Below are positions 32,094 through 57,900 of a DNA stretch of 64,000 nucleotides, piece after piece. The notes under the pieces were generated by a model. The model made no database searches and was not told the origin of the DNA. It saw only the letters and a list, made by a program, of their open reading frames with translations. Position 1 is the stretch's first letter. Each line of letters begins with the position of its first letter. A program made the position numbers and the translations under genes. Origin of the DNA: a virus. Location: positions 1 through 64,000 of IMG/VR virus record IMGVR_UViG_3300025880_000014; one strand, 5' to 3'.

Positions 32094-32282
32094 TTATTTT
32101 AAAGATCCCATGAACTCTATTCCAAACTTATTTATATAATCCATTGATTCAGTAGGGCCTATGATCGCGTCTGGGTTCGCTATGTATATTTTAAAGAACA
32201 TATCGTCTCCTACTGTTTTTCTTTTTAGCTCTAGTTCCTTTAATTCCGGTACGTATCTTTTATTAAATCCCATTCCATGCAT
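32094..32282 (-). CDS. Small hypothetical protein
   Basis: The product has 62 residues, starting inside the end of the dCMP deaminase gene (20-nt overlap; an ATG three codons later would shorten the overlap to 11 nt). It contains KRYVPELKELELKRKTVGDD and a C-terminal hydrophobic stretch. No family recognised. Confidence 0.55.
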   Translation of the reverse strand: MHGMGFNKRYVPELKELELKRKTVGDDMFFKIYIANPDAIIGPTESMDYINKFGIEFMGSLK

Positions 32283-32775
32283 TTACTTGTTCAACAATAA
32301 TATTAGCTTGTTGTAATAACTCAACTCCACTCATATCTCTATAATCTTCTGTATAATATACTTTTGAAATTCCAGCCTGTATAATTAATTTAGCACATCC
32401 AAAACATGGGCATGTTGTTGTGTATAATTCAGCGCCTTCGCAACTCATAGTCGATTTTGCAACTTTCATAATTGCATTTGATTCTGCGTGAAGAACTTCA
32501 GGTTTTGTTATTGCATTATGTTTGTGACATATGCCATTATCGCATTCATACCCTTGATCCATTAAATCTAGAGCGTGGTCTGGACTTTCATAATGCCTAA
32601 TATCGGTTTCTTCACAGGCGTTATTAAATCCATGTGGCATTCCATTATAACCGAATGAAATTACTTGATGGTCTTTTACAATGACACAGCCGACCTTACG
32701 TCGTTCAGCATAACTCAGTTTTGAAAACTGATACGCGGTTTGCATGTATACTAATTCAATTGGTATCTTTGGCAT
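32263..32775 (-). CDS. Deoxycytidylate (dCMP) deaminase
   Basis: The product has 170 residues. The zinc-binding catalytic signature is complete: H-A-E at residues 96-98 and P-C-F-G-C at 123-127. The insert between residues 50 and 90 carries several Cys/His (C54, C78, C83, H84, H86), as in T4 gpCd, which binds a second zinc. The enzyme converts dCMP to dUMP, feeding dTMP synthesis and raising the dTTP pool. No thymidylate synthase or dUTPase is in this window. It is the first gene after a terminator (32820-32851). Confidence 0.9.
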   Translation of the reverse strand: MPKIPIELVYMQTAYQFSKLSYAERRKVGCVIVKDHQVISFGYNGMPHGFNNACEETDIRHYESPDHALDLMDQGYECDNGICHKHNAITKPEVLHAESNAIMKVAKSTMSCEGAELYTTTCPCFGCAKLIIQAGISKVYYTEDYRDMSGVELLQQANIIVEQVNAWNGI

Positions 32776-32819: not shown

Positions 32820-32851
32820 ACAAAAAAAAGCCCGGATTTCTCCAGGCTTTT
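32820..32851 (-). terminator. Intrinsic terminator with GAAA tetraloop
   Basis: The minus-strand RNA folds as AAAGCCUGGA-GAAA-UCCGGGCUUU (10-bp stem with one G-U pair) followed by a run of U. It lies 24 nt after the acidic tagged gene at 32875-33678 and ends the tagged-protein operon. Confidence 0.85.
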
Positions 32852-32874: not shown

Positions 32875-33678
32875 TTACTCTACGTCTTCAGCGTCTTCTG
32901 CTGAATCAGATTCTTTCATTTCATTAATTTTAGTAGTATATGATTCGATCATTGAATTACAAGCTGCTTCATATGTTTCAGTTGAATAATCTTCTTTCAT
33001 TTCTTTAAGAGCTCCAGCTGCTAATGCTGCAACTAACGCTGCGTTTTCAGCCATGTAAGATTCTACAGTGTGAGAGTCGTGTGCGTCTTCTTCCCATGCT
33101 TTAGCTTCGTTTTTACAAGATTCATAAGCTTCTTTTAACATCGATGCTACTGCTATTGCAGCTGCAGGATTTTCGTTTACTTCTTCAGTCTCTTCAGATT
33201 CTTCTACTTTGTAAGTTTCTCCTTCGAATTCGAATTCATCTTCACCAGCTTCTTTAGCTTTTCTAACTGCGTCTCCGAATGCATTACCTTCTTCAACCTC
33301 TTCAACTTCTTCGTCAGCCTCTTCAACTTCTTCTTCGTTTAAAGATTTTACTCTAACTGTTGCAGTTTCTTCTGATTCTTCGATATACTCTGATAAACCA
33401 GCGTCATCCCATCCGTATTGAGAATCTGCTAATACTGTTTCAAGATCTTCTCTTTTTCCTGTTAGTTCAACTTCTGGAAATCCTGAAGGACCGTCTTGGT
33501 CGATAACTTCCATAGAAACATTGTTCTTTTTAAGTAATTTTGCAAGACCTTTTGATTTTGGATCAACTGCGTCCATTACTACTGAAGCTTCTTGTACTTC
33601 TTGGTTGGTTGCTGTTTCTTGGGCAGCGTTTGCTTGTTTTTCAGCAACATACTGTTCAAATGATTTTAATTTTGCCAT
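32875..33678 (-). CDS. Acidic virion-internal or scaffold-like protein with N-terminal targeting-like tag
   Basis: The product has 267 residues and is very acidic. It starts with the shared tag (MAKLKSFEQYVAEKQAN). A central Glu/Val-rich linker (EEVEEADEEVEEVEEG) leads to GNAFGDAVRKAKEAGEDEFE, then FEGETYKVEE. This motif recurs in phage proteins of unknown function and resembles a small beta module. The C-terminal ~90 residues are helical and Ala/Glu-rich. Such acidity and helicity fit a prohead core/internal protein. The gene closes the operon of tagged genes before a terminator. Whether it is scaffold or injected effector is open. Confidence 0.72.
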   Translation of the reverse strand: MAKLKSFEQYVAEKQANAAQETATNQEVQEASVVMDAVDPKSKGLAKLLKKNNVSMEVIDQDGPSGFPEVELTGKREDLETVLADSQYGWDDAGLSEYIEESEETATVRVKSLNEEEVEEADEEVEEVEEGNAFGDAVRKAKEAGEDEFEFEGETYKVEESEETEEVNENPAAAIAVASMLKEAYESCKNEAKAWEEDAHDSHTVESYMAENAALVAALAAGALKEMKEDYSTETYEAACNSMIESYTTKINEMKESDSAEDAEDVE

Positions 33679-33728
33679 AATATAATTTATTTTAATTGTT
33701 TTTTATTATTAATCTATATATCTATGAA

Positions 33729-34760
33729 TTAAATGATGATTTCTTTGCCATCAATAACGTCTTGATAGTTAACTCGGCATTTAGATCTTTTAATTTGATC
33801 TTCATTCTCTTCTAGGTTAATTTTATAAATAGGTCTAATATACTCTTCATTTAAGTATGTTTTAAACTCTCTTGGTAGTTCCTCTTTGTAAAAATCCTCG
33901 TATATTGCAACATAAACCCTAGCCATTTTATCTGCGGCCATTCCTGAGGCTGAATTGATCTCAGCAACCCAGCATTCGCCGGATTTATCTACCATTAGAT
34001 CAATTGACCAAAGTCCAAGTTTTAATTTTTCTCTAACTGTTTTACAAATATCAGTTATTTTATCCATGAAATCTAACTTACTCATATCTTGATCTACATA
34101 AGTAAATTCGGTTTTTTCACCAGATTTTTTATCTTTAATTTCATTTTCAGTTGCTGATACTCTTTCATGTACTAATATAACATTATCATTTACTAATAAA
34201 ATTCTAAACTCTGTATCTAAGTCTTTAGCTTCTGAATAGTTTTGAAATTCACCTTTACTTTTTTCTAAGTCTTCATAAGTATCAAAAATTTCAATACCCA
34301 TTCCGGAGTGCCCGTCGTCTGGTTTTGCAATTACTGGAAATTCTAAATCTTTTGCATCTTCTTTTTTGTATACGGCCTTTGGTATAAAATCTGAATCGCC
34401 AAACATTTTATAAAAGTCAGTTTTATTACCGCTAATCTTCATAGCTTCGGGTACATTGTACATATCATCTTCTGATATATTATACTTCTCTAGAAAATCT
34501 AAGCCTTCTTTTGAATTTCCGCCATAATAAATAAGAGGTAGTTTTGAATTAACTTCCAAGTCTTTTCCATAATCTCCTTTTGCGTAAAAAGCGTTATAAA
34601 GCTCTTTTAAACAAATCTCATTTACTTCGCCGTAAATACTATTGTTTGTGCCAGTAAGTCCTTTTACCTCTTTTCCTGCTAATATAAAATTAACTTTTTT
34701 TAGATAATCTTTATTAGACTTTTCAAATAGAAATTTCTCAAAGAGTTTAACTTTTTTCAT
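33729..34760 (-). CDS. ATP-grasp ligase with N-terminal targeting-like tag
   Basis: The product has 343 residues. The tag MKKVKLFEKFLFEKS is followed by an ATP-grasp fold: FPVIAKPDDGHSGMGIEIF (residues 141-159) is the glycine-rich ATP loop, and WSIDLMV (251-257) with VAEINSASG (265-273) carries the Mg2+-binding Asp/Glu/Asn set. ATP-grasp enzymes of the RimK/glutathione-synthetase type join a carboxylate to an amine through an acyl-phosphate. The product is unknown. If the tag targets it to the capsid, it could be injected and act early on host proteins or metabolites. Confidence 0.8.
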   Translation of the reverse strand: MKKVKLFEKFLFEKSNKDYLKKVNFILAGKEVKGLTGTNNSIYGEVNEICLKELYNAFYAKGDYGKDLEVNSKLPLIYYGGNSKEGLDFLEKYNISEDDMYNVPEAMKISGNKTDFYKMFGDSDFIPKAVYKKEDAKDLEFPVIAKPDDGHSGMGIEIFDTYEDLEKSKGEFQNYSEAKDLDTEFRILLVNDNVILVHERVSATENEIKDKKSGEKTEFTYVDQDMSKLDFMDKITDICKTVREKLKLGLWSIDLMVDKSGECWVAEINSASGMAADKMARVYVAIYEDFYKEELPREFKTYLNEEYIRPIYKINLEENEDQIKRSKCRVNYQDVIDGKEIII

Positions 34761-34774
34761 TATAATCTTTTTAT

Positions 34775-35122
34775 TTATAGCATATATATCTTAATTCTAA
34801 GATCGGTTGTTCCTTTTATGATTCTGTGTATATTTCCTTTAGGAATCTTAAGGTCGATCCCTGTAATTAATGGAGTTGGCAATTCATTGTCATATTGAAA
34901 TCTCCAGTCAGAATCTTCTAATACTTCAATGACCCTATCCTCAGGGTCGCTGTGCCATTTATATAAGTGTTCTGGATAACTTGGATCGAATGTTCTTATA
35001 ACATAACCATCATATTGCTCTTCAACGAAGGGCTTGGTTTGATCATTAATGTTAGCTATCAATTCTTCCATTGACATGCTACCGCATTTACAAGATTTAC
35101 ATTTACAATCTTTGTTTACCAT
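34775..35122 (-). CDS. Small Cys-rich/cupin-like protein
   Basis: The product has 115 residues from the ATG at 35122, which overlaps the previous stop as ATGGTAA. A frame from 35176 is possible but would overlap the neighbour by 61 nt. The N-terminus is Cys-rich (MVNKDCKCKSCKCGSM, CxCxxCxC). The rest (HSDPEDRVIEVLEDSDWRFQ; LKIPKGNIHRIIKGTTDLRI) resembles a small cupin-like beta barrel with a His-containing last strand. It lacks the N-terminal tag of its neighbours. It may bind a metal; function unknown. Confidence 0.7.
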   Translation of the reverse strand: MVNKDCKCKSCKCGSMSMEELIANINDQTKPFVEEQYDGYVIRTFDPSYPEHLYKWHSDPEDRVIEVLEDSDWRFQYDNELPTPLITGIDLKIPKGNIHRIIKGTTDLRIKIYML

Positions 35123-35655
35123 GGTTGATCTGATTTTAAACCTAATTGCTTTCCAAAAAGAGTTGGTCCATAACATGCCCAGAATCCAGCTTTCATTGGA
35201 TCCATCTTTGTGGCTTTATCACAACCATGTCGAGCCCAAAAACTAGCTGCTTTTCCAGGATCATCATTTTTAACAGAAAGATTTGGATCTCCCCATTCAA
35301 CCTTTTTAGCGATGATGTTTCCTTCTTTGTCTTTTCTACCTCCGTCTCGATATACAATAAACTTTTTACCTCCACCTCTTTCAGGTGAATCTAATTTAAC
35401 TTTGATTGTTTTTCCGCCACGTGGAGTATAGACTGCTGGTTTACCTACATCAAGATTTTTAGCCATCCAGCCTGAAGGTCCTTTTAGAACAATGTTGTTT
35501 TTGTCCCAGTATTCTTTAACCTCTTCGAATAATTTAGAATATGCATCGCTGCCTAATCTAAAAAAAGAATTAGTTAAATCTAAATCTTCATTAAGATGTG
35601 CCTTTAATTCCGGTGAAACCTTTTCCCAAGCTTCGAATGTTTTTATAAATTTCAT
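35116..35655 (-). CDS. Tagged phage protein with conserved C-terminal Cys/Trp motif
   Basis: The product has 179 residues from the ATG at 35655; the longer frame begins with TTG. The N-terminus is the shared tag (MKFIKTFEAWEKVSPEL). The C-terminal ~90 residues (VEWGDPNLSVKNDDPGKAAS, then SFWARHGCDKATKMDPMKAG, then FWACYGPTLFG) match a motif widespread in phages: S-F-x-A-R-H-x-C followed by W-A-C. Here two Cys remain, perhaps a small metal or redox site. No enzymatic function is known to me. Probably packaged if the tag works as proposed. Confidence 0.72.
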   Translation of the reverse strand: MKFIKTFEAWEKVSPELKAHLNEDLDLTNSFFRLGSDAYSKLFEEVKEYWDKNNIVLKGPSGWMAKNLDVGKPAVYTPRGGKTIKVKLDSPERGGGKKFIVYRDGGRKDKEGNIIAKKVEWGDPNLSVKNDDPGKAASFWARHGCDKATKMDPMKAGFWACYGPTLFGKQLGLKSDQPW

Positions 35656-35659
35656 ATTT

Positions 35660-35965
35660 CTACTTTTCCATGTTATCAATTAAATCCTGTCGGTCTAATT
35701 GCTTATAAACTTCTTTACGAACTTTTTCCATTTTCTCAGCATATTTTGGATCGTCATTACGATTAAATACAACTTGTTGAGTTAGTGAACCACTGATCTT
35801 CTTAACATCACCTTTACGAGTCTTTATTAACCATGCTGCTAAATCTTTAATACCTAAGTCTTTAAATCTACCCTCAGCTTCAGGTGCATCTGACTGATAA
35901 AAATCTGGAGCTCCTGGTGGTTTTTTCTCTGTAATAAACTGTTCGAATAATTTAATGCGGTTCAT
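35660..35965 (-). CDS. Small tagged protein with conserved helical C-terminus
   Basis: The product has 101 residues, starting with the tag MNRIKLFEQFITEKKPP. The remainder (IKDLAAWLIKTRKGDVKKIS, GSLTQQVVFNRNDDPKYAEK) is a conserved small phage domain, basic and helical, often seen as a separate hypothetical protein. Its role is unknown. It sits between the acetyltransferase-like and the Cys/Trp-motif genes in the same operon. Confidence 0.72.
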   Translation of the reverse strand: MNRIKLFEQFITEKKPPGAPDFYQSDAPEAEGRFKDLGIKDLAAWLIKTRKGDVKKISGSLTQQVVFNRNDDPKYAEKMEKVRKEVYKQLDRQDLIDNMEK

Positions 35966-35966
35966 A

Positions 35967-36314
35967 TTAATTAGGGTATTTTACCATTGTATTTCTTGTT
36001 AGACTCTTATCGTTATTTTTTACAAATCCTAAATCTTTATAAAAACTAGTAAGTCTACTAATTGAAGTGGCTCCAAAATCTTTAGATGGTGTTAGAAATA
36101 TAGGCTTGCCTTCTTTGTTTGCAAAATCTATAATTAATTTCATTACTTTAGTTCCGATGCCCTCTCCTCTTTTTTCTTTGGGTATTTCAATTCTAGATAA
36201 TTCTAAATATCTTTCAGTATTATATAAATCTAATACAACTCCAAATTCATCTTCTAAATGTTGGAGTGCCATTTCTTCATTTAAAAATTCCTCGAATAAT
36301 TTAACCCTTTTCAC
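35967..36314 (-). CDS. GNAT-type acetyltransferase with N-terminal targeting-like tag
   Basis: The product has 115 residues from a GTG at 36314 (MKRVKLFEEFLNEEMAL), 1 nt beyond the stop of the upstream gene. The frame extends to an upstream GTG (36395), but this would add 27 residues overlapping the neighbour, and the shared tag marks the real start. The GNAT acetyl-CoA loop is visible as KEKRGEGIGTKVM (residues 47-59) and the C-terminal FYKDLGF motif (91-97). It is short for a GNAT, so the core may be minimal. Target unknown; it may acetylate a host protein after injection. Confidence 0.75.
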   Translation of the reverse strand: MKRVKLFEEFLNEEMALQHLEDEFGVVLDLYNTERYLELSRIEIPKEKRGEGIGTKVMKLIIDFANKEGKPIFLTPSKDFGATSISRLTSFYKDLGFVKNNDKSLTRNTMVKYPN

Positions 36315-36315
36315 G

Positions 36316-36780
36316 TTAATCTTCTTTTGATTTAAATGGTAACTTTTTATCGTGACCTCCGTCTCTAACTTCTTTAGCGACGTCTTTGTCAGCACCTCCC
36401 CAAGTTCCTTTTCCTTTTTCTAAGAATGCATTTATTCTAGCGTATCCCCATCCTTCTTGCGTCATACCTGGATGGTGTCCGCTGTTCCAAGCGTCCATTC
36501 CGCGTCTCATTATAATTCTCAATAATGGTACAGGTACTCCACTTTCCTTTGATTTATTCTTGATTCCGGTTTCTACAGCCTTGCCTTTGAGTGGGCTTCT
36601 GTCTCCTTTAGCTTTTTCTGCTTCATTAACAGATTCTCCTAAAATTGGAGTATTATCATAACCACATTCGTGACATATATAAGGTTCTTTTCCACCTTCA
36701 TCTAATCTCCACGACCAATCGCAACCTTCACAAGATACTTTGTTGGCTGAAAACTCTTCAAATAGTTTAATATATTTCAT
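36316..36780 (-). CDS. Tagged protein with zinc-ribbon-like pair and DUF5824-like domain
   Basis: The product has 154 residues. The tag MKYIKLFEEFSANKV is followed by CEGCDW and CHECGYD, two CxxC pairs about 20 residues apart, as in a zinc ribbon. The C-terminal part (VPLLRIIMRRGMDAWNSGHH, then PGMTQEGWGYARINAFLEKG) matches a domain common in phage hypothetical proteins (tentatively DUF5824-like). The domain is of unknown function. The gene opens the run of tagged genes, 29 nt after the UV endonuclease gene. Confidence 0.75.
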   Translation of the reverse strand: MKYIKLFEEFSANKVSCEGCDWSWRLDEGGKEPYICHECGYDNTPILGESVNEAEKAKGDRSPLKGKAVETGIKNKSKESGVPVPLLRIIMRRGMDAWNSGHHPGMTQEGWGYARINAFLEKGKGTWGGADKDVAKEVRDGGHDKKLPFKSKED

Positions 36781-36809: not shown

Positions 36810-37739
36810 TCAGGATAAAACTAGATCATTTAAATATTCTTTACGATATTTGATTAAGGCAAGTTCTTTTGCTTTTACTTCTAATTCAATGTCAAGATCC
36901 ATATTGTATGTTTCAATCTTTTCGTATATGTAGTCAGCATGTGCTCGTAAGATAACTGAATCATCCTCGTGCAGTTTTTTTGAAGATGAGTAGTGGCATA
37001 GCTGTCGAATACCTGCGGGCCAAGTTGATGCTGCTAATTTAAGAGCATCTTCTTCGGGCATTGGATCTTCGTAGCACCTGTGGTGGTGGTAATCGAACGT
37101 AATTGGAGTGCCAATTTTTTCGTAGATGTCATATAGATCTTGTACGGAATATTGTGCTGGTTTGTCGTCATTTTCTAGAACTAATCTAGCTTGAGCAGAT
37201 GGACTTAGTCTTTTAAAATTCTCGACAAAACGTTGTTTTGCAGCTTCTTTGTCGCCATAAGAACCCCCGACATGGATATTCATAGAATATGTGTGATTTT
37301 GTGGTAGTCCCATTGTATCTAATATAAGAGCAGACTGATCTAATTCTCGGATAGCAGCTGTAACAACCTTTGGAGTTGGGCTTGGTAAAACACAAAACTG
37401 ACCTGGGTGAAAACCTACACGTTGGCCGTATTTTTGAACAAGCGTGCCAGCGCCTTTAAGTAAATTAGATATTGTTTGCCAATTAGGTAAATCAGATAAT
37501 TCATACTCACTCATCCAAGGAAACATAGAGCTACTCATACGATAAACATTAATGCCTTGTTTGTGATTCCACTTTATAATCTCAATAAGATCTCGTACAT
37601 TTGCTTCGGCCAATTCTCCGGCGTATTTGCTACCTTTAGCTGTGAATGTTCGTTTAATCATTGATCGACCGATCTTGATGTCGTGATCTTTTTGTAGTGT
37701 TAAATTAATGCAACAGTATCCGTAGTTTGCTTTTCCCAT
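36810..37739 (-). CDS. uvsE: UV damage endonuclease (UvdE/UvsE family)
   Basis: The product has 309 residues and is a TIM-barrel UV endonuclease. The start MGKANYGYCCINLTLQ is the family's N-terminal strand (substrate pocket); GINVYRMSSSMFPWMS, GFHPGQFCVLPSPTPK and TFDYHHHRCYEDPMPEEDAL carry the conserved metal-binding His/Asp/Glu residues. The enzyme nicks DNA 5' of UV photoproducts and abasic sites in a repair pathway independent of UvrABC. Light-exposed habitats favour this gene in phages. It is followed by the tagged operon and preceded by the 81-residue gene. Confidence 0.93.
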   Translation of the reverse strand: MGKANYGYCCINLTLQKDHDIKIGRSMIKRTFTAKGSKYAGELAEANVRDLIEIIKWNHKQGINVYRMSSSMFPWMSEYELSDLPNWQTISNLLKGAGTLVQKYGQRVGFHPGQFCVLPSPTPKVVTAAIRELDQSALILDTMGLPQNHTYSMNIHVGGSYGDKEAAKQRFVENFKRLSPSAQARLVLENDDKPAQYSVQDLYDIYEKIGTPITFDYHHHRCYEDPMPEEDALKLAASTWPAGIRQLCHYSSSKKLHEDDSVILRAHADYIYEKIETYNMDLDIELEVKAKELALIKYRKEYLNDLVLS

Positions 37740-46722: not shown

Positions 46723-49317
46723 TTATATTTGCCCTTTGAGGCCTCCACCAGCGCCTCCGGTTTGCGTAACTAATCCATTAACGAATGTGACATTGTGTCC
46801 CGTACTAAAGTAAATGGTTTCACTAATCCCACTAGTTGGTCCGTTAGTTCCTTGAGATCCTCGAGGACCCTTTACTCCCGCAGGACCAAGTTGGCCCGTA
46901 TTTCCAGTAAATCCTTTATAACCTTGTGCTCCATTGGTACCTTTAGCTCCTGGAGCTCCTTTAGCTCCTTGAGAACCATTATTACCCTTAAGACCCTGTG
47001 GCCCTCTTGGTCCGGTGCTACCATTTAGTCCTTTATAACCTGTTGGTCCTACTAGCCGTGCTCCTTGTGGTCCTCTATATCCAACTCCTAGACTACTACC
47101 AGTAGTTCCTTGGAATCCTCGAACTGTTCCAGTTGGTCCTTTATAGCCGGTAAGTCCTTTAAATCCTGTATAGCCTGTAATAGTAGATCCAGTGGTTCCT
47201 TTTAAACCCTGTGGCCCGACATATCCTTGAACTCCTTTTGGACTTGCTCCAGTATTACCTTGTGCTCCTTGAGGTCCAGTATATCCTTTTGCTCCTCCTG
47301 GTTGTGATCCTTTAAGACCTTGATCTCCCTGAACACCAATAAATCCAATATACCCCTTAGGCATTGCTCCTTTAGCACCCTGATTTCCTTGGGCTCCTTG
47401 TGGTCCTCTATGTCCAGTTGGAGAATCTCCAATCGGTCCGGTGTTACCATTTAGTCCTTTATAACCTGTAACTCCTTTATATGAGGTTGGACGTACACCT
47501 TGAGTTCCCTGTGGTCCTCTTGGTCCAGTGCTTCCGGTTGGTTGTGCTCCTTTATCTCCTTGAGTACCTTGTGCTCCTTGTGGTCCTCTTGATCCTCCGG
47601 GCTGTGCTCCTTTATTTCCTTGGAATCCTCTTGGTCCTGTTACTCCAATAAATCCTTTTGGCTGAGCTCCTGTATATCCTTGAACTCCTTGAGCTCCTTG
47701 AACTCCTCTAAATCCTGTTGGATTTGCTCCTTGGAAACCTCTTTCTCCATTAATTCCTGTGTAACCGGTTGCTCCTGTTGGTGAAGATCCTTGAACTCCT
47801 CTATAACCAGTTGCTCCAATAAATCCAATATACCCCTTTGGCATTGCTCCTTTTAATCCTTGGAAACCTCTTGGTCCTGTTGGTCCAGTTGGCGAAGTTG
47901 GTCTAGCTCCTTGGAAACCTCTTGGTCCCGTATTTCCAGGATCACCGATAATTGCGTCATATGCAGGTCCTGTTGGTCCTGTATATCCTGTTGGTCCGTT
48001 TGGTCCTATGTGTCCTTTTGGACTTGCTCCGATATTACCCTGTGCTCCTTGAGATCCTTTAAGACCAGTATATCCCTTTGGACTTGGTCCTGTATATCCT
48101 GTTGGTCCGTTTACTCCTTTATCTCCTTGGAATCCTCTATTAGTACTTCCTTGAGATCCTCTAATACCCTGTACTCCTTGAAACCCTCTTGGTCCTGTTG
48201 GTGAATTACCAATAGCTCCTTGAAAACCTCTTGGTCCAGGATCTCCTGTTTGAGCAGCTGGCGTACTTCCAGTATTTCCTTGAAAACCTCTTTCTCCGTT
48301 TAATCCTTTGTCTCCAACTGGATTTGCTCCTTGTGCTCCTTTAAAACCAGGATAACCTTCAGCTCCTTGAAAACCTTTTGGACTATTTCCAACGTCTCCT
48401 TGAAAACCTCTATCTCCGTTTAATCCTTTGTCTCCAACTGGATTTGCTCCTTGTGCTCCTTTAAAACCAGGATGACCTTCAGCTCCTTGGAAACCTTTTG
48501 GTGAATCACCAACATTTCCTTGAAAACCTCTGTCTCCAGTTTGTCCTACTTGTGCAGTTTGAGTTGAACCCTGTGCTCCTTTTAGTCCGGTAGCACCCTG
48601 TGAACCTTTATGTCCTTTTTGATTTGTACCTGCAGAACCTTGAAATCCTACATGTCCAACAAAACCAGTTGCTCCACCTGGATTTAAACCCGTAGTACCT
48701 TGATCTCCTTGAAAACCTCTGAAACCAGTTGCTCCTGTTAATTGATCTCCCTGAAACCCTCTTGGTCCATCAGGTCCAATATCACCAACGTAAGCTGTAA
48801 TTACATTACCCTGTGATCCAGTTGAACCTTGATCTCCTTTTATTCCTTTAAGACCATTAGTTATTTTACCTGCATCTCCATCTGTTCCTTGATTTCCTCT
48901 AAAACCTTCTGGTCCTTCTGGTGAATCTCCAATTGTTCCTTGGAATCCTCTAAAACCTTGATCAGCAGTACCTTTATTTCCTTGAAAACCTCGATCTCCT
49001 TGAAAACCTATATTACCTTCATAACCTTGATGTCCTTGTGGACTGTCTCCTTGAAAACCTCTGAAACCAGTATCTCCAACAGGTTCTAAACCTGCAGATC
49101 CTTGAACTCCTTTATCTCCTTGAAAACCTCTATCTCCTTGAAAACCTTGAGCTCCAACAATACCTTGAAAACCTTGATCTCCTTGAAAACCTTGAGCTCC
49201 AACAATACCTTGGTCTCCCTGGTCTCCTTTCAATTCAGGATAGTTATTAGCATCAAAGTTACCAGTATGTAAGGGAGTTTCTCCCCCTACAAGTGATCCT
49301 GTATTTAATTTTGCCAT
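46723..49317 (-). CDS. Collagen-like fibre protein with periodic interruptions
   Basis: The product has 864 residues, nearly all Gly-X-Y from about residue 30 to 820. The N-terminus ([20 protein letters not shown], then [11 protein letters not shown]) is shared in pattern with the next two fibre genes and may be the attachment domain. From about residue 240 on, the helix is broken at regular intervals by G-x-x-P-x units such as GNSPK, GANPV, GAMPK and GAQPG, commonly followed by five triplets, giving a 20-residue period. Lys, Gln, Thr and Arg dominate the Y position, Pro the X position. C-terminus: [13 protein letters not shown]. Likely a trimeric side fibre or surface fibre. Confidence 0.88.
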
Positions 49318-49357
49318 GTTATTTTTATTCTTTTTTTATATATAATTAACTTATTGG

Positions 49358-52015
49358 TTATTGGATAAATCCGTTTGAAACAATATAGCCTGTTCCATTA
49401 TCGTCTGTGAAAAATCCGTTAAAACCATTACCTATAGATCCACTTCCATGATAACCTTGTGGTCCTCTTGGTCCTGTTGGTCCATATCCGACTGGTCCCA
49501 TACTTCCAGTTAATCCTCTTGCTCCTGCTGTTCCAGCTCCTCCGCCAGATCCTTGGAATCCTCTTGGTCCTGTTGATCCATTTGCTCCTTGATATCCGAC
49601 TGATCCTACTATCTGATTTCCTTGTGCTCCTGTTGCACCCTGGGCTCCTGGTATTCCTGTATATCCTTGAGGTCCTCTTGCTCCTTGAACTCCGTTTGGT
49701 CCTTTATATCCTGTTGGTCCATTATTACCTTGTGGTCCTCTTGACCCCGTTGGTCCTGTTGAACCTGTAGCTCCCTGTGGTCCCGTATTTCCTTGTGATC
49801 CCTGTGGACCAGTTGGTCCTTTATAACCTCCACCTCCGGCGGATCCGGATCCTCCTTGATATCCTCTTGGTCCTGTATTACCAGTGGCTCCTTGTGCACC
49901 TTGGAATCCTGATATTCCTTTGTTTCCAGTGGCTCCTTGTGTTCCTCTATCTCCCACTGCCGAAGTAGTTCCAGTAAGTCCTTTATTACCAATAAATCCA
50001 GTATAACCTTTTGCTCCAGTTACTCCTTGTGCTCCAGTTGATCCCTGTGCTCCTTGATTTCCTTTAGCTCCAGTATTTCCCTGTGCTCCTGTTAATCCAG
50101 TTGCTCCTTTTAATCCAGTATATCCAGTTACTCCCTGTGCTCCTTGATTTCCTTGTGATCCGTTAACTCCTGTTTTACCAATAAATCCAGTATAACCTGT
50201 TGCTCCAGTTCCTCCTTGTGAACCGTTAACTCCAGGATAACCAGTTGGTCCCGTTGGTCCTTGATTTCCAACGGCTCCAGTTCCTCCAGTTGCTCCTTTA
50301 GCTCCAACAAGTCCAGTATATCCTTTTGGTCCGGTTGCACCCTGTGCTCCTGTAAATCCAGTAGGTCCTGTTGAACCTTTAGCTCCCTGTGCTCCTTGTG
50401 CTCCTTTTACATTAGTAAATCCTTGAGGTCCCGTTGGCCCTTGAGGACCGGTGTTACCAACCGCAGATGTTGTTCCTGTTAATCCTTTAAAACCAGTAGC
50501 TCCTTTTGCTCCTTGTGCTCCTTGTACTCCTGTTAATCCTTTAAAACCAGTAGCTCCTTTTGCTCCTTGTGCTCCTTGTGCTCCTTTAGGTCTTTGAGAT
50601 CCCTGAGGTCCCTGAGCTCCTTTTGCTCCTTGAGAACCTTTATTACCAGTAGCTCCTTTAGCTCCTATTGCTCCCTGGAATCCTCTTTCACCAAGTGAAC
50701 CTTGATTTCCGATAACACCCTGGGGTCCAGTTGATCCCTGTGCTCCTTGATTTCCTTTTACTCCTTCAAATCCTGTTGAACCAACAATTCCTATATAACC
50801 AGTATCTCCTTTGAAACCGGTAAATCCTGTAGATCCTTTAGCACCCTGTGCTCCAGTAACTCCTTGGAATCCCTTTGGTCCCGTAACTCCTTGTGGTCCT
50901 CTTCCACCAGCTCCGCCAGTTAATCCTTGATAACCAGTTGCTCCAATATTACCTTTAGCTCCTTGATTTCCTTTAGCTCCAGTATCTCCTTTAAGTCCGT
51001 TAGATCCTGTAATACCAACATACCCAGTAGAACCTGTAGCTCCTGTTGCTCCTTGATAACCAGTTGCTCCAATATTACCTTTAGCTCCTTGATTTCCTTT
51101 AGCTCCAGTATCTCCTTTAAGTCCGTTAGATCCTGTAATACCAACATACCCAGTAGAACCTGTAGCTCCAGTATCTCCTTGATAACCTGTTGCTCCAGTA
51201 GATCCTTGCGCTCCTTGAGATCCAGTACTTCCTTTATCTCCTAAAAGACCTTGAAATCCTCTTTCACCAGGATCTCCTGGTAAAGAATCCGAAGCAGTTG
51301 CTCCTTTAAATCCTTTTTGTCCTGTTGAACCTTTAGCTCCCTGAGATCCTTTAACTCCATTAGTTCCAGGTAATCCTTCAAAACCGGTAGATCCTTTAGA
51401 TCCCTGTGCTCCATCAACTCCGGTAAATCCTTTTAAACCGGTTGAACCTTGTGATCCTTTATTTCCTTTAACTGATGTTGCTCCTTTTGCTCCTTGGAAT
51501 CCTCTTTCTCCAGTATCTCCTTGTGTACCTTGTGTACCTTTAATACCGACAGAACCTTGACTTCCTTGAAAACCTCTTTCTCCGTTAATTCCTTTTACAC
51601 CCTGTGCTCCAGTAAAACCTTGGAATCCTTGAAGTCCAATAGAACCTTGATCGCCGACTTGTCCTTGATAACCATTAGAACCATTAGGACCTAATATACC
51701 TGTTATTCCTTTTTCTCCTCTAATTCCAGTAGCTCCGGTAAAACCTTGAAGACCAGTAGATCCTTGATTACCTTTACTACCAGTAGATCCTTGATCACCT
51801 TGACTACCTTGATAACCCCCAGTTCCAACGAAACCTTGATTACCTGTATCACCTTGATGACCGACACTACCGTCGGATCCAACAGATCCTTGGGATCCTT
51901 GAGATCCCAATTCACCGTTCGGTCCAATAAGCTGAGGAAAATTCGTGCTATTAAGGTTACCACTGTGTAATACGAGATTACCGTCTAACGTAGTACCTAA
52001 GATAAATTTTGCCAT
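49358..52015 (-). CDS. Collagen-like fibre protein
   Basis: The product has 885 residues. N-terminus [20 protein letters not shown], then LNSTNFPQL. The triple-helical region follows, with motifs such as [13 protein letters not shown] and [10 protein letters not shown]. Interruptions are few (for instance [17 protein letters not shown]). A 126-bp direct repeat at 50925-51050 and 51051-51176 encodes the same 42 residues twice. C-terminus: [20 protein letters not shown] and GFIQ. It lies between the 864- and 957-residue collagen-like genes. A fibre or virion-surface role is probable. Confidence 0.88.
50925..51176. repeat. 126-bp tandem repeat in the 885-residue collagen-like gene
   Basis: 50925-51050 and 51051-51176 are near-identical tandem copies (42 codons, 14 triplets), and a partial third copy begins at 51177. 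The 126-bp unit length matches that in the neighbouring 957-residue gene. Confidence 0.8.
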
Positions 52016-52050
52016 GTTATTATTTTTATATTTTTATTTGTTTTATATTG

Positions 52051-54924
52051 TTATCCAATATTTACACCGTTTTGGATAGTACGTACTCCACGCGTATGAA
52101 ATATTTGACCGCTAAATCCTCCGGTTGCATTATTACCTTGATAACCCTGTGGTCCTCTTGCTCCGGTACCAGATCCACCCTGGACTCCTTGATAACCTTG
52201 TGGTCCTCTTGCAGGTGCAGGCTGTCCTCCAGCGCCTTGATAACCTTGAGGTCCTGATGTTGCGGAAGCTCCTTTTGCTCCTTGTGTTCCTTGTGCTCCT
52301 GTTGCTCCTTTTAAACCTTGAGGTCCTCTTGGTCCTGCACCACCATTAAGTCCTACATAACCTTGTGCTCCACGTGCTCCAACGTTTCCGTTTGCACCTT
52401 GTACTCCTTGAGGTCCTGTATATCCTTGAACTCCTTGAGCTCCCTGGGTTCCTTGAGCTCCTCTTACAGTACCTGCAGGTCCAATAAAACCTTTAAGTCC
52501 GGTTGAACCTTGTGGTCCTCTTACTCCCTGTGGCCCTGTTGGTCCTGTATATCCTTTTGGTCCTGTTGCTCCTTGGAATCCTCTGTGACCTGGCGCACCA
52601 CTATAACCTTGTGGTCCAGTTAGTCCTTTATAACCCTGTACTCCTTGAGTTCCTCTTGCAGCCGCAGTTCCCTGTGGTCCAGTTATTCCTTTATCACCAG
52701 TAGCTCCTTGTGGTCCTCTTGGTCCAGTAGATCCTTTAAAACCTGTATCTCCTTTTGCTCCTTGTGCTCCTCTAATTCCTTGTGGTCCAAGATCTCCAGT
52801 AGGTCCAGTTGCTCCTTTAGGTCCGATATATCCGATATATCCTTTTGGTCCAGTTGCTCCTTGAGGTCCTTTAATTCCTTTTGCTCCAGTTGCTCCTTGA
52901 TTACCCTTTGGTCCAGTTATTCCCTGAACTCCTTTTGCTCCTTGAACACCAATTGTTCCCTGAGCTCCTTGAGGTCCAGTATTTCCTTGAGGTCCTCTAA
53001 TAGTTCCAGTACTTCCGGTTGCTCCTTGAAAACCTTTATTACCAGTAGCTCCGGTTGCTCCTTGATTACCTTTAATTCCTTGGAATCCTCTGTCTCCAGT
53101 TGCTGCAGTAGATCCTTTAAGACCTTGTGCTCCTCTAACTCCTTGATTTCCTTGGAATCCTCTTGGTGCAGCAGTTCCCTGTGCTCCAGTATTTCCTTGA
53201 AATCCAATCTTTCCAGTTGGTCCTAAATCACCAATTGCTCCGGTATTTCCTTGAACTCCAATAAATCCTTTATCTCCTTTAATTGCACTTGGTGCGATAT
53301 ATCCAGTATCTCCCTGGAATCCTCTGTCTCCAGTTGCTCCTTGATTACCCTGTGCTCCTGTTACTCCAGTATATCCTTTTGCACCAGTAGTACCTTTAGC
53401 TCCTTGGAATCCTCTTGGTCCGCTAGATCCTTGATGTCCTCTTTCACCAGCATCTCCTTGAACTCCTTTTGAACCTTGTGGTCCAACTGCTCCAACAGAT
53501 CCCTGTGCTCCTATTATTCCAGTGTTTCCTTGAACTCCAGTTGCTCCAGTTGCTCCTTTATCTCCAGTTGCTCCTTGAGGTCCTGTATAACCTTTTGCTC
53601 CTTGTGCTCCAAGAGGTCCTGTTAAACCTTTAGCTCCTTGATCTCCTTTGAAACCTTGATCTCCTTTAAGACCAACATTTCCAATAACACCTTGGTTTCC
53701 TTGAAAACCTCTTGGACCAGTGTTACCCTGTGCTCCAGTTGATCCTTTTAAACCTTTAGCTCCTTGATCTCCTTTGAAACCTTGATCTCCTTTAAGACCA
53801 ACATTTCCAATAACACCTTGGTTTCCTTGAAAACCTCTTGGACCAGTGTTACCCTGTGCTCCAGTTGATCCTTTTAAACCTTTAGCTCCCTGTGATCCTT
53901 TAAAACCTCTTTCACCAATGATACCATCGGCTCCAGTAGATCCTTGATAACCTGTTGCTCCAGTAGATCCTTGTGTTCCTATTACTTTATTAATACCAGC
54001 GTCTCCTTGAGTTCCTTGATTTCCTTGAAAACCTCTGTCTCCTACGGGTCCGTTAATACCTGTTGTTCCTTTAATTCCTTTGTCTCCTTGGAATCCTCTG
54101 GCTCCATTTGAACCATTATTTCCTTTTGCTCCTTGAGGTCCTGTAAATCCAACGTCTCCTTGTGCTCCTCTGTTTCCATCAAGTCCTTTATAACCTGTTG
54201 CTCCAGTTGAACCTTTAAAACCTTGATCTCCGATTACTCCATCAGAACCTTGATCACCTTTATAACCGGTAACCCCTTGATTTCCCTGAACTCCAATAGG
54301 TCCAGTAACTCCTTTGTTTCCGATAGATCCTTGGAATCCTCTGGCACCGTCTACGCCTGTTAAACCCTTAGTACCTTGAGTACCTTTAGTTCCTTGGTTT
54401 CCTTGGAATCCTCTTTCACCTTGATTTCCAACAATACCTTTAGATCCTTGAAATCCTCTTTCACCTTTAGCCCCAGTAGTACCTGAAATACCAATATCTC
54501 CTACTAATCCTTTACTACCACGTGATCCTTCACTACCAGTATCTCCTACTAATCCAGTATTTCCGAGAGAACCTTTATCTCCACGAAAACCTTCATCACC
54601 GGTATTTCCTTTTACTCCTTTTAAAGAAGAGAAATCACTAGGTGTAAAATTACCAGGTCTTAATATTAGATTGCCACCGATTGTTGAATCAGCCTTAAAG
54701 CTTCCGCCACCATCAAAAATACCACCCGCTATAATTGCGGAATCAGTACTCCTAATAGTTAACACATTCCCCGCAGGGAATGTGTTTAACTCTTCTAGGT
54801 AAGACGGCGTATAGACGATAGCTGAATCTTGGTCAATTCCTGCTCTGTTCGAGTTTTCATCGATCTGAGCCTGGAATTCTCCGGTAGATTGTACTAGTTT
54901 TATCGCTATTTTATTAAATGCCAT
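52051..54924 (-). CDS. Collagen-like fibre protein with larger N-terminal domain
   Basis: The product has 957 residues. The first ~95 residues are a non-collagen domain (KLVQSTGEFQAQIDENSNRA; AGGIFDGGGSFKADSTIGG, ending GNLILRPGNFTPSDFSSLKG). The rest is Gly-X-Y. Two exact 126-bp copies (53624-53749 and 53750-53875) encode 42 residues containing [21 protein letters not shown]-terminus: GQIFHTRGVRTIQNGVNIG. Its N-terminus is longer than in the two neighbours but shares the GNx...LKG junction into the helix. It probably binds the virion through this domain. Confidence 0.88.
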   Translation of the reverse strand: MAFNKIAIKLVQSTGEFQAQIDENSNRAGIDQDSAIVYTPSYLEELNTFPAGNVLTIRSTDSAIIAGGIFDGGGSFKADSTIGGNLILRPGNFTPSDFSSLKGVKGNTGDEGFRGDKGSLGNTGLVGDTGSEGSRGSKGLVGDIGISGTTGAKGERGFQGSKGIVGNQGERGFQGNQGTKGTQGTKGLTGVDGARGFQGSIGNKGVTGPIGVQGNQGVTGYKGDQGSDGVIGDQGFKGSTGATGYKGLDGNRGAQGDVGFTGPQGAKGNNGSNGARGFQGDKGIKGTTGINGPVGDRGFQGNQGTQGDAGINKVIGTQGSTGATGYQGSTGADGIIGERGFKGSQGAKGLKGSTGAQGNTGPRGFQGNQGVIGNVGLKGDQGFKGDQGAKGLKGSTGAQGNTGPRGFQGNQGVIGNVGLKGDQGFKGDQGAKGLTGPLGAQGAKGYTGPQGATGDKGATGATGVQGNTGIIGAQGSVGAVGPQGSKGVQGDAGERGHQGSSGPRGFQGAKGTTGAKGYTGVTGAQGNQGATGDRGFQGDTGYIAPSAIKGDKGFIGVQGNTGAIGDLGPTGKIGFQGNTGAQGTAAPRGFQGNQGVRGAQGLKGSTAATGDRGFQGIKGNQGATGATGNKGFQGATGSTGTIRGPQGNTGPQGAQGTIGVQGAKGVQGITGPKGNQGATGAKGIKGPQGATGPKGYIGYIGPKGATGPTGDLGPQGIRGAQGAKGDTGFKGSTGPRGPQGATGDKGITGPQGTAAARGTQGVQGYKGLTGPQGYSGAPGHRGFQGATGPKGYTGPTGPQGVRGPQGSTGLKGFIGPAGTVRGAQGTQGAQGVQGYTGPQGVQGANGNVGARGAQGYVGLNGGAGPRGPQGLKGATGAQGTQGAKGASATSGPQGYQGAGGQPAPARGPQGYQGVQGGSGTGARGPQGYQGNNATGGFSGQIFHTRGVRTIQNGVNIG
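53624..53875. repeat. 126-bp exact tandem duplication in the 957-residue collagen-like gene
   Basis: Two copies, 53624-53749 and 53750-53875, appear identical base for base. Such an exact duplication indicates recent slippage or unequal recombination in the fibre gene. Confidence 0.85.
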
Positions 54925-54978
54925 ATCTTTGTTTTTATTATTTTTTAGTTACTCCTGTTTTATTTATTCCAATTAATA

Positions 54979-57900
54979 TTAATCGAATGAGAATGTAATG
55001 TCTCCATTTGCATCTCTTTCAATTCTTGCCGTTGGGTTACCGTTAGCATCTTCGAAATAAATAGCTTTATCATTGGCGATTGTTATTGAATCTCCATCAA
55101 ATGCTCCAGTTTCTCCTTGGAATCCTTGATCTCCTTTAGCTCCAGTTAAACCCTGTGCTCCAGTATCTCCTTTGAAACCTTGATCTCCTTTGAATCCTTG
55201 GTCTCCTTTAGCTCCAGTTAAACCCTGTGCTCCAGTATCTCCTTTGAAACCTTGATCTCCTTTGAATCCTTGGTCTCCTTTAATACCTTGAATACCATCG
55301 TCTCCTTTAGTACCTTGAACTCCTTGAATACCTTGAATACCATCGTCTCCTTTGAATCCTTGATCTCCTTTTAAACCAGTATCTCCTTTGAAACCTTGAT
55401 CTCCTTTAAGACCTTGAATACCTTGAATACCATCGTCTCCTTTAGTACCCTGAACTCCAATAACTCCTTGTTCCCCTTGGAAACCTTGAATACCTTGCTC
55501 TCCAGTATCTCCTTTGAAACCTTGATCTCCTTTAAGACCTTGAATACCTTGAATACCATCGTCTCCTTTAGTACCTTGAACTCCTTGAATACCTTGAATA
55601 CCATCGTCTCCTTTGAATCCTTGATCTCCTTTTAAACCAGTATCTCCTTTGAAACCTTGATCTCCTTTTAAACCAGTATCTCCTTTGAAACCTTGATCTC
55701 CTTTAAGACCTTGAATACCTTGAATACCATCGTCTCCTTTAGTACCCTGAACTCCAATAACTCCTTGTTCCCCTTGGAAACCTTGAATACCTTGCTCTCC
55801 AGTATCTCCTTTGAAACCTTGATCTCCTTTGAAACCTTGATCTCCTTTAGCTCCTAAAGTACCTGATTCTCCTTGGAAACCTTGATCTCCTTTAAGACCT
55901 TGAATACCTTGAATACCATCGTCTCCTTTAAGACCTGTATCTCCTTTAAGACCAGTTTCTCCTTGGAATCCTTGATCTCCTTTAGCTCCAGTATCTCCCT
56001 GGAAACCTTGAATACCTTGTTCTCCTTGATCTCCTTTAAGACCATCAATACCTTGGAAACCTTGATCTCCTTTAGCTCCAGTATCTCCTTGGAAACCTTG
56101 ATCTCCTTGGAAACCTTGGAAACCTTGATCACCCTGTGCTCCAATTTTCATTGGTGTGAAAGATACAATAATTTGACCATTTGCTGATGGGATGTTCGCT
56201 GCGTACGCGTCGTTAGTCATGTGTTCCGCAGAAGAAGTACCACCATCGTAATTACTGTTTGAACCACCAACTCTTACCATGTCTACTCTAAGATCTCCTC
56301 TTCCGGCAGAACCTAAAATAATGGAAGCGTTTGATGCTTCATATAAATGATATTTACTAGAGTCTCCATTCTTAGAAACTTTTACGTAAATTCTATCGTA
56401 ACCATCAGATACCATATTTGTAAATAAAGAATTCATGTGGTTGATATCTTGCAATCCGTTTGCGATATCTGAGAACCACCATTCTTGAGAACCTCCATAA
56501 ATAAATGAAGATGCTTCAGTATGTCCTAATTGATTAACGTTTGTGTATTTATTATCTGAGAAGGTAATACCATCATAAACAACTGATAAACCACCAGCGT
56601 TACCTACAGTACCTTGGAATCCTTGATCTCCTTGATCTCCTTTAAGACCTTGGAAACCTTGATCTCCTTGGAAACCTTGGAAACCTTGATCTCCAGTTTC
56701 TCCTTGAATACCTTGTTCTCCTTGATCTCCTTTAAGACCAGTATCTCCTTGGAAACCTTGATCACCTTGGAAACCTTGATCACCTTGGAAACCTTGGAAA
56801 CCTTGATCTCCTTTAGCTCCTAATGTACCATCAACTCCTTGGAAACCTTGATCTCCTTTAGCTCCAGTATCTCCTTGGAATCCTTGATCTCCTTTAGTAC
56901 CCTGAACTCCGATAACTCCTTGTTCTCCAGTATCTCCTTTGAAACCTTGAATACCTTGCTCTCCAGTATCTCCTTTGAAACCTTGATCTCCTTTAAGACC
57001 TTGAATACCTTGCTCTCCTGTATCTCCTTTAGTACCCTGAACTCCAATAACTCCTTGTTCCCCTTGGAAACCTTGAATACCTTGCTCTCCTGTATCTCCT
57101 TTAAGACCAGTTTCTCCTTGGATACCTTGGATACCTTGTTCTCCAGTATCTCCTTTAAAACCTTGATCTCCTTTAAGACCTTGAATACCTTGAATACCAT
57201 CGTCTCCTTTAAGACCTGTATCTCCTTTAAGACCAGTTTCTCCTTGGATACCTTGGATACCTTGTTCTCCAGTATCTCCTTTAAAACCTTGATCTCCTTT
57301 AAGACCTGTATCTCCTTTAAGACCAGTTTCTCCTTGGATACCTTGCTCTCCTGTATCTCCTTTAAAACCTTGATCTCCTTTAAGACCTTGAATACCTTGT
57401 TCTCCAGTGTCTCCTTTGAATCCTTGATCTCCTTTAAGACCAGTTTCTCCTTGGATACCTTGGATACCTTGTTCTCCAGTATCTCCTTTAAGACCAGTTT
57501 CTCCTTGGATACCTTGAATACCTTGTTCTCCAGTATCTCCTTTAGTACCCTGAACTCCAATAACTCCTTGTTCCCCTTGGAAACCTTGAATACCTTGCTC
57601 TCCTGTATCTCCTTTAAGACCTGTATCTCCTTGGAATCCTTGATCTCCTTTAAGACCAGTTTCTCCTTGGATACCTTGGATACCTTGTTCTCCAGTATCT
57701 CCTTTGAAACCTTGATCTCCTTTAAGACCTTGAATACCTTGTTCTCCAGTATCTCCTTTAAAACCTTGATCTCCTTTAAGACCTTGAATACCTTGCTCTC
57801 CTGTATCTCCTTTAAGACCTGTATCTCCTTGGAATCCTTGATCTCCTTTAAGACCAGTTTCTCCTTGGATACCTTGTTCTCCAGTATCTCCTTTAAGACC

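Follow-up and report, generated by a model that had tools for sequence, protein, structure and literature searches.

A shared N-terminal tag on unrelated phage proteins resembles the capsid-targeting sequence of T4 internal proteins

The window analyzed in this study is the first 64,000 of the 71,584 bases of the IMG/VR virus record IMGVR_UViG_3300025880_000014. Seven tightly packed genes lie on its minus strand from 36780 to 32875, and six of the seven products begin with a similar short peptide, here called the tag. We interpret the tag as a capsid-targeting sequence (CTS) of the T4 type, whose cargo would be freed in the phage head and injected, with a probability of about 0.8. Targeting of the head core by a T4-like CTS is well supported by the comparisons described below, a cut at residue 13 of the tag is likely, and injection of the cargo is proposed by analogy. 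Signals of this kind are known from T4. New here are the greater length of the tag, its scale and cargo, and a scaffold composed of similar units.

The six tagged products share the pattern M-[KNA]-x-[IVL]-K-[LTS]-F-E-x-[FYW] over the first ten residues. All six starts proposed in an earlier sequence-only reading were confirmed at their place and strand. The same reading had described the proteins behind the tag as unrelated, and this was borne out: the six bodies match different families in PHROGs and Pfam, or none. Tagged protein 1 (36316-36780, 154 amino acids) starts with MKYIKLFEEF, followed by a Zn ribbon and then by L-G-E/V-N-E and a DUF5824 domain (E-value 2.8e-10). Tagged protein 2 (35967-36314, 115 amino acids; MKRVKLFEEF, tag MKRVKLFEEFLNE) carries a GNAT domain, and its GTG start directly adjoins the stop of the preceding gene. 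Tagged protein 3 (35660-35965, 101 amino acids; MNRIKLFEQF, tag MNRIKLFEQFITE) is a small basic protein with no family match. Tagged protein 4 (35116-35655, 179 amino acids) starts with MKFIKTFEAW and has a weak match to phrog_7595 (E-value 1.2e-4). Its AlphaFold2 model had a mean predicted local distance difference test (pLDDT) score of 41 and was set aside. Tagged protein 5 (33729-34760, 343 amino acids; MKKVKLFEKF, tag MKKVKLFEKFLFE) is an ATP-grasp ligase. Tagged protein 6 (32875-33678, 267 amino acids; MAKLKSFEQY, tag MAKLKSFEQYVAE) is acidic, matches phrog_5922 with an E-value of 2.2e-4, and is possibly a core-type protein. All six are encoded on the minus strand.

The tag count was compared with chance in four records (G000 to G003), with one start per open reading frame (ORF), namely the 5'-most ATG or GTG codon. 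The stricter tag pattern was found in 34 of 737 ORFs, versus 9 of 3711 later in-frame ATG or GTG codons. These nine include genuine tags in upstream-extended ORFs, such as that of the window GNAT. When several starts were tried per ORF, 58 loose and 43 strict matches were counted (strict: G000 6, G001 12, G002 15, and G003 10), and these counts inflate the contrast between starts and internal codons because each ORF is tried more than once. The T4-derived motif [FY]xx[FYW][ILVM]xE was found near the N-terminus at the 5'-most starts of 3/70, 10/206, 13/229, and 10/232 ORFs in G000, G001, G002, and G003, respectively, and at 1/349, 3/985, 5/1016, and 8/1361 of the later starts.

Relatives of tagged protein 1, the Zn-ribbon/DUF5824 protein, were found at 33 loci of public viral contigs. 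In these loci the tag is present on many other bodies, and some DUF5824 proteins start directly with MKHIKLFEQFINE-like tags. A set of 63 fetched loci and the window, none selected by the tag, contains 95 tagged proteins with 32 unrelated body families. The position profile of the tag in this set is M-K-H-I-K-L-F-E-Q-F-I-N-E, in which the invariance of E8 arises by construction because the 'strong' pattern demands [FY]E. A triplet [ILVM]-x-E (with V and M accepted in addition to I and L) directly follows the tag in 28 of the 32 body families. Its background is 0.019 per position (1.9%) in the bodies, and 45/1333 after internal aromatic pairs. In a widened set searched with the stricter pattern, at least 302 distinct tagged proteins were found in 149 of 183 sources. 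They belong to at least 137 body families, as grouped by blastp of residues 17 onward, and 97 of these are singletons. Since 119 of the 183 sources were selected by a DNA pattern of the tag, among the matches listed, the properties of the tag were measured on the unselected sources only.

In T4, the CTS is carried by the internal proteins IPI, IPII, and IPIII and by Alt (PMC9026906, PMC9391042). Residues 4 and 7 are described as the main determinants of targeting, residues 8 and 10 as those of processing, and the cut motif of the protease gp21 is given as L/I-X-E (PMC9026906). IPII and IPIII start with MKTYQEFIAE, and IPI starts with MKTFKEFTSTTTPVSTITE. Residues 4, 7, 8, and 10 of the T4 CTS align with F7, F10, I11, and E13 of the tag. 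In the window, four of the six tagged proteins have [ILV]-x-E directly at residues 11-13. As to kinship of the bodies with T4 IPI, IPII, or IPIII, the PHROGs and Pfam families matched by the window bodies include no internal-protein family. The titles and abstract openings listed from the open-licence literature yielded no description of the tag or of a CTS in such phages.

The location of the tag in the head operon was examined in relatives. An S77 protease and a gp23-type capsid protein are both present in three of seven related records by Pfam. Record G001 ends inside the portal gene, and locus L238 continues the portal gene with 69% nucleotide identity. Loci were then collected by the prohead protease domain alone, and the best 80 of 106 were taken. 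From these, 38 were omitted by eye as seemingly redundant or truncated, and 42 were analyzed. After removal of two without a complete ORF and nine repeating the first 150 residues of another, 31 protease-scaffold proteins were obtained. An ORF of at least 80 amino acids lies between portal and protease in 23 of the 31 loci, and all 23 are tagged. Eighteen have the full tag (L218 with an extra residue), four have F-x-x-F only, and one, in L238, has the full tag at a downstream Met, where it was confirmed. This interval, here called the core slot, is the position of T4 gp67 and gp68. By position, the tag would sit on a prohead core component of these relatives. The core-slot tags also bear on the cut site. 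The sequence-only reading had proposed cleavage after L-F-E. Of the 20 distinct core-slot tags, 16 contain F-x-x-F-[ILVM]-x-E, including one with an additional residue, whereas [LI]-[FY]-E occurs in just six, so L-F-E is disfavored as a general cut site, and a cut at F-[IVL]-x-E, ending at residue 13, is more likely.

In these relatives the scaffold is fused behind the protease domain, and it contains six to nine copies of [FYWH]xx[FYWH][ILVM]xE in all 31 proteins. The mean number of copies within residues 191-380 is 7.0, versus 0.07 in shuffled sequences. The spacings between copies are multiples of 7 in 173 of 201 cases, and 121 are exactly 14. None of the other ORFs of G001-G003 exceeds three copies, and the uncultured phage LR756500 has four. 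The simplest reading is that the tag corresponds to a single unit of a heptad-based scaffold and would be built into the core as such. The CTS interpretation of the sequence-only reading is retained in its main part by the residues in register, the tag in 23 of 23 core slots, and the likeness to the scaffold motif, and its L-F-E cut is the less likely one.

The fused arrangement can be seen in L048:8201-10336 (G003) and its relatives, where a scaffold with repeats of 14 residues follows the prohead protease in one polypeptide. Just upstream of the repeats, G003 and G002 have an internal Met (MENKARF... and MAESKF..., respectively), which could yield a separate scaffold product. A relationship between the acidic window protein and the G003 scaffold was considered and is not claimed, since blastp aligned 14 residues only, with an E-value of 0.012 in a set of 14 sequences.

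The cargo was surveyed by a Pfam scan of 140 tagged proteins, comprising 136 of the 137 family representatives and four more. At most 39 of the 140 have any Pfam match. The names found include GNATs, DUF5824, Phage_lysozyme, CHAP, AAA_33/zeta-like kinase, CTP_transf_like, methyltransferases, PAP2, and Acb1. A tagged 2H phosphoesterase is encoded at L012:3684-4226 (G002), in a cluster shared with a relative of the window Zn-ribbon gene. It clears the Acb1 Pfam cut-off with 30 versus 27 bits, and a second relative, with 24 bits, falls below it. Nine tagged members of this Acb1-like family, some of them nearly identical, occur in the fetched loci, and both H-x-T motifs are conserved in 8 of 8 relatives. 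The predicted model (pLDDT 83) matches structures of a phage phosphodiesterase, Usb1, and Acb1, with the tag at low confidence and outside the confident fold. In a sequence search of the Protein Data Bank, Acb1 itself was reached with an E-value of 0.028 only. An untagged relative is present in Maribacter phage Molly_1. Four tagged proteins (L077:7917-8522, L089:336-917, L147:6396-6992, and L182:633-1229) are similar to nicotinamide-nucleotide or pantetheine-phosphate adenylyltransferases and are possible counter-defence cargo related to nicotinamide adenine dinucleotide (NAD). The window GNAT is a solo protein of 115 amino acids, and its domain is related to one domain of DarB-like antirestriction proteins. 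Relatives occur in 37 phage records; among the ten listed, three, from two phages, are annotated as DarB-like antirestriction proteins. It also matches phrog_10691, a profile of 3925 positions. PADLOC gave weak single matches only (best E-value 0.00015), which were not relied on.

These identities help to weigh an alternative in which the tag does target the prohead core, and the tagged proteins are assembly helpers or core filler that are digested or leave the head, with few or none injected. T4 gp67 and gp22 are core proteins that are digested by the protease or leave the head. The tag on the core-slot protein and on the acidic window protein would fit this alternative, and so would the putative cut site common to scaffold units and tag. 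It is nevertheless unlikely, as the bodies that could be named (GNAT, ATP-grasp, Acb1-like, adenylyltransferase-like, lysozyme, CHAP, and kinase) are enzymes and do not resemble core proteins, and as the cargo varies between close relatives, L003 for example lacking the window GNAT gene. Most bodies say nothing on this point because so few have a Pfam match. Under the preferred CTS reading, not every tagged protein need be an injected effector, and the acidic protein at 32875-33678, for instance, could belong to the core and be digested.

The tag might instead be a helix that docks onto a different hub (tail, inner membrane, or replication compartment, for example). Short amphipathic N-termini are known to have many docking roles. 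This explanation is quite improbable, since it leaves unexplained the [IVL]-x-E end, the tagged core-slot protein between portal and protease, and the matching scaffold repeats.

The tag behaves as a detachable module. The window GNAT gene is absent at the corresponding place in L003, where 349 bases are gone in two alignment gaps 9 bases apart that end at tags. The tags may therefore act as recombination seams. Domains are also shuffled behind the tag: a Zn ribbon is joined to a GNAT-like end in L076, and L024 and L126 each encode, behind this tag, a fusion of the basic domain of tagged protein 3 with a DUF5824-like domain. The tags of unrelated genes differ by synonymous changes, with L6 encoded by CTA, TTA, TTG, CTT, and CTC. 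These differences indicate that the peptide is kept rather than the DNA, and the codon variety argues for selection on the tag peptide. That the likeness of the tags is a feature of the DNA (a recombination hot spot, a translation signal, or a recent duplication of gene starts) has in its favor that the extra window GNAT gene starts and stops at tags, and it is highly improbable in view of the many synonymous changes and of the amino-acid pattern that persists in LR756500 and PAU, lineages in which the codons and some of the residues differ.

Among named capsid proteins, the nearest come from LR756500 (an uncultured 462-kb phage), Prevotella Lak phages, other uncultured megaphages, Tenacibaculum phages PTm1, PTm5, and pT24, and phage PAU. 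These capsid relatives suggest a Bacteroidota host. LR756500 has a divergent tag of the type MKYIKEYEEF[VI]xE, with 11 matches of a looser pattern versus 0, and a 234-kb record contains 17 tagged genes by a looser DNA pattern. Phage PAU (NC_019521; L186 and L189) has an array of MKT[LI]xxL[YF]E, with 19 forward matches and one reverse match and a control of 0. Twelve of the 20 matches are at 100.2-113.4 kb, a stretch with portal, protease, and scaffold. The same pattern gave 1 match in T4 (control 1), 1 in PTm1 (0), 1 in pT24 (1), 4 in LR756500 (5), and 3 in Lak-B1 (0). PAU gp142 and gp154 carry the deposited label 'internal capsid protein'. The mature PAU capsid protein has 520 of 585 residues and 56.2 kDa, according to published N-terminal sequencing (PMC5646251 Table 1). 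From the lengths given there (PMC5646251), the cut is at or one residue from L62-M63-E64, and the calculated masses of 56.1 and 56.0 kDa fit alike.

Several points weigh against the CTS reading. In the window, two of the six tagged proteins have no direct cut site; both have a later L-x-E, which in tagged protein 1 is L-G-E at residues 47-49 and in tagged protein 4 is L-N-E at residues 21-23, the earliest [IL]-x-E past its tag. The records of the window and of G001 are without protease and capsid genes, so the head operon is visible only in relatives. Eight of the 31 protease loci add nothing to the core-slot count: three stop short of the portal, and five are divergent and have no core-slot ORF. 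Near-identical pairs remain among the 31 scaffolds. T4 gp22 and the proteins of that region in PTm1, pT24, and PAU have at most one copy of the scaffold motif, so the imitation of the scaffold is supported in one lineage group only. Near residue 44, 24 of the 25 listed capsid proteins carry L-Y-E and the remaining one L-N-E, and a capsid cut at this place is a guess because other I/L-x-E triplets lie upstream. In PAU, the 'internal capsid' labels are known from deposits alone, and 5 of 13 tags inspected continue to L-N-E.

The proposed mechanism is as follows. A short amphipathic helix is the probable form of the 13-residue peptide M-K-x-[IV]-K-L-F-E-x-F-[IVL]-N-E, and this helix would join the growing prohead core by imitating the scaffold unit [YF]-x-x-[YH]-[LIV]-A-E. 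During head maturation, the prohead protease would cut after [IVL]-x-E in scaffold units and tag alike. The conserved site suggests that the cargo is freed inside the head by this cut. T4 IPI, Alt, and P1 DarB provide the analogy for the next step, in which the cargo would enter the host with the DNA and act early in infection. The window cassette would be one such cargo locus.

The tag resembles the T4 CTS as a short N-terminal peptide on unrelated proteins with the order aromatic-x-x-aromatic-[IL]-x-E, and the relatives share with T4 an S77 prohead protease and a gp23-type capsid protein. As in T4, some cargo looks host-directed. Unlike the T4 CTS, the tag has 13 residues with a K-x-[IV]-K-L-F-E head, and the cargo is different. 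T4 has three internal proteins and Alt, whereas single records here have 10, 12, and 15 tagged genes by the strict protein pattern and 17 by the DNA pattern. The scaffold here also differs from that of T4: it forms one polypeptide with the protease and consists of tag-like repeats.

P1 DarB is packaged via an N-terminal signal within 30 residues, which brings antirestriction cargo to the head (PMC9024508). The tag is similar as an N-terminal head signal, and the window GNAT is related to a domain of DarB-like proteins. The Dar N-termini are described as lacking a consensus (PMC9024508), whereas one consensus serves many proteins here. Polyvalent proteins with GNATs, NTases, lysozymes, and other domains were proposed to be injected with the DNA (PMC5512222). 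Polyvalent and DarB-like proteins have their domains in one long chain, unlike the mostly separate small tagged proteins of this study. The ejection proteins of phiKZ and SPN3US are comparable in having cleaved N-terminal propeptides with a suggested head-targeting role (PMC5694885, PMC9026906). They differ in that several of those propeptides exceed 100 residues and in that the phiKZ sites are S/A-X-E (PMC5694885, PMC9026906).

Chances are about even that the tag defines an open cargo system, in which acquiring a 13-codon copy of the scaffold unit would be enough for the product of any gene to be co-assembled, cut loose, and injected. The tagged genes would then form a readable list of injected effectors, including pre-loaded counter-defence proteins (an Acb1-like cyclic-oligonucleotide phosphoesterase and NAD-related nucleotidyltransferases) that would act before phage gene expression. 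The injected proteins of tailed phages are hard to read from sequence, and one tag may mark them; of the body families found behind it, most have no recognised domain. Imitation of the scaffold repeat offers a mechanism by which a short peptide could enter the prohead. The tagged proteins are a source of candidate early-acting counter-defence proteins, and the tag may serve as a natural address for protein loading into the heads of T4-like phages.

In the Zn-ribbon tagged proteins (window 36316-36780 and, among others, L008, L010, L012, and L019), [LIM]-x-E directly follows the ribbon in 10 of 11. Because the ribbon sits between the F-x-x-F half and [LIM]-x-E, it may belong to the removed part and go with the cut-off tag. 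A 50-amino-acid ORF at L018:9771-9923 consists of tag and Zn ribbon only and ends in V-L-G-E-Q; it is either a truncated gene or a stand-alone form. A further copy of the motif, AFEQFVSESG, lies inside the tagged protein at L147:4919-6034, around residue 83. The body of this protein has no Pfam match and looks nucleotidyltransferase-like by eye.

The seventh gene of the cassette is untagged (34775-35120, minus strand). Its product has 114 amino acids from the ATG at 35120 and a Cys-rich N-terminus (MVNKDCKCKSCKCG). A longer ORF from 35176 would overlap the preceding gene. A terminator-like hairpin with a T tract lies 3' of the last tagged gene (32826-32851, minus strand), identified by a consensus match only. 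The cassette is flanked by untagged genes for a dCMP deaminase (32263-32775) and UvdE (36810-37739). Elsewhere in the window, a stretch of elevated G+C content (up to 0.44) at 46723-58818 contains four minus-strand ORFs of great length, which are probably tail fibres; some of them have collagen-like GxQG repeats.

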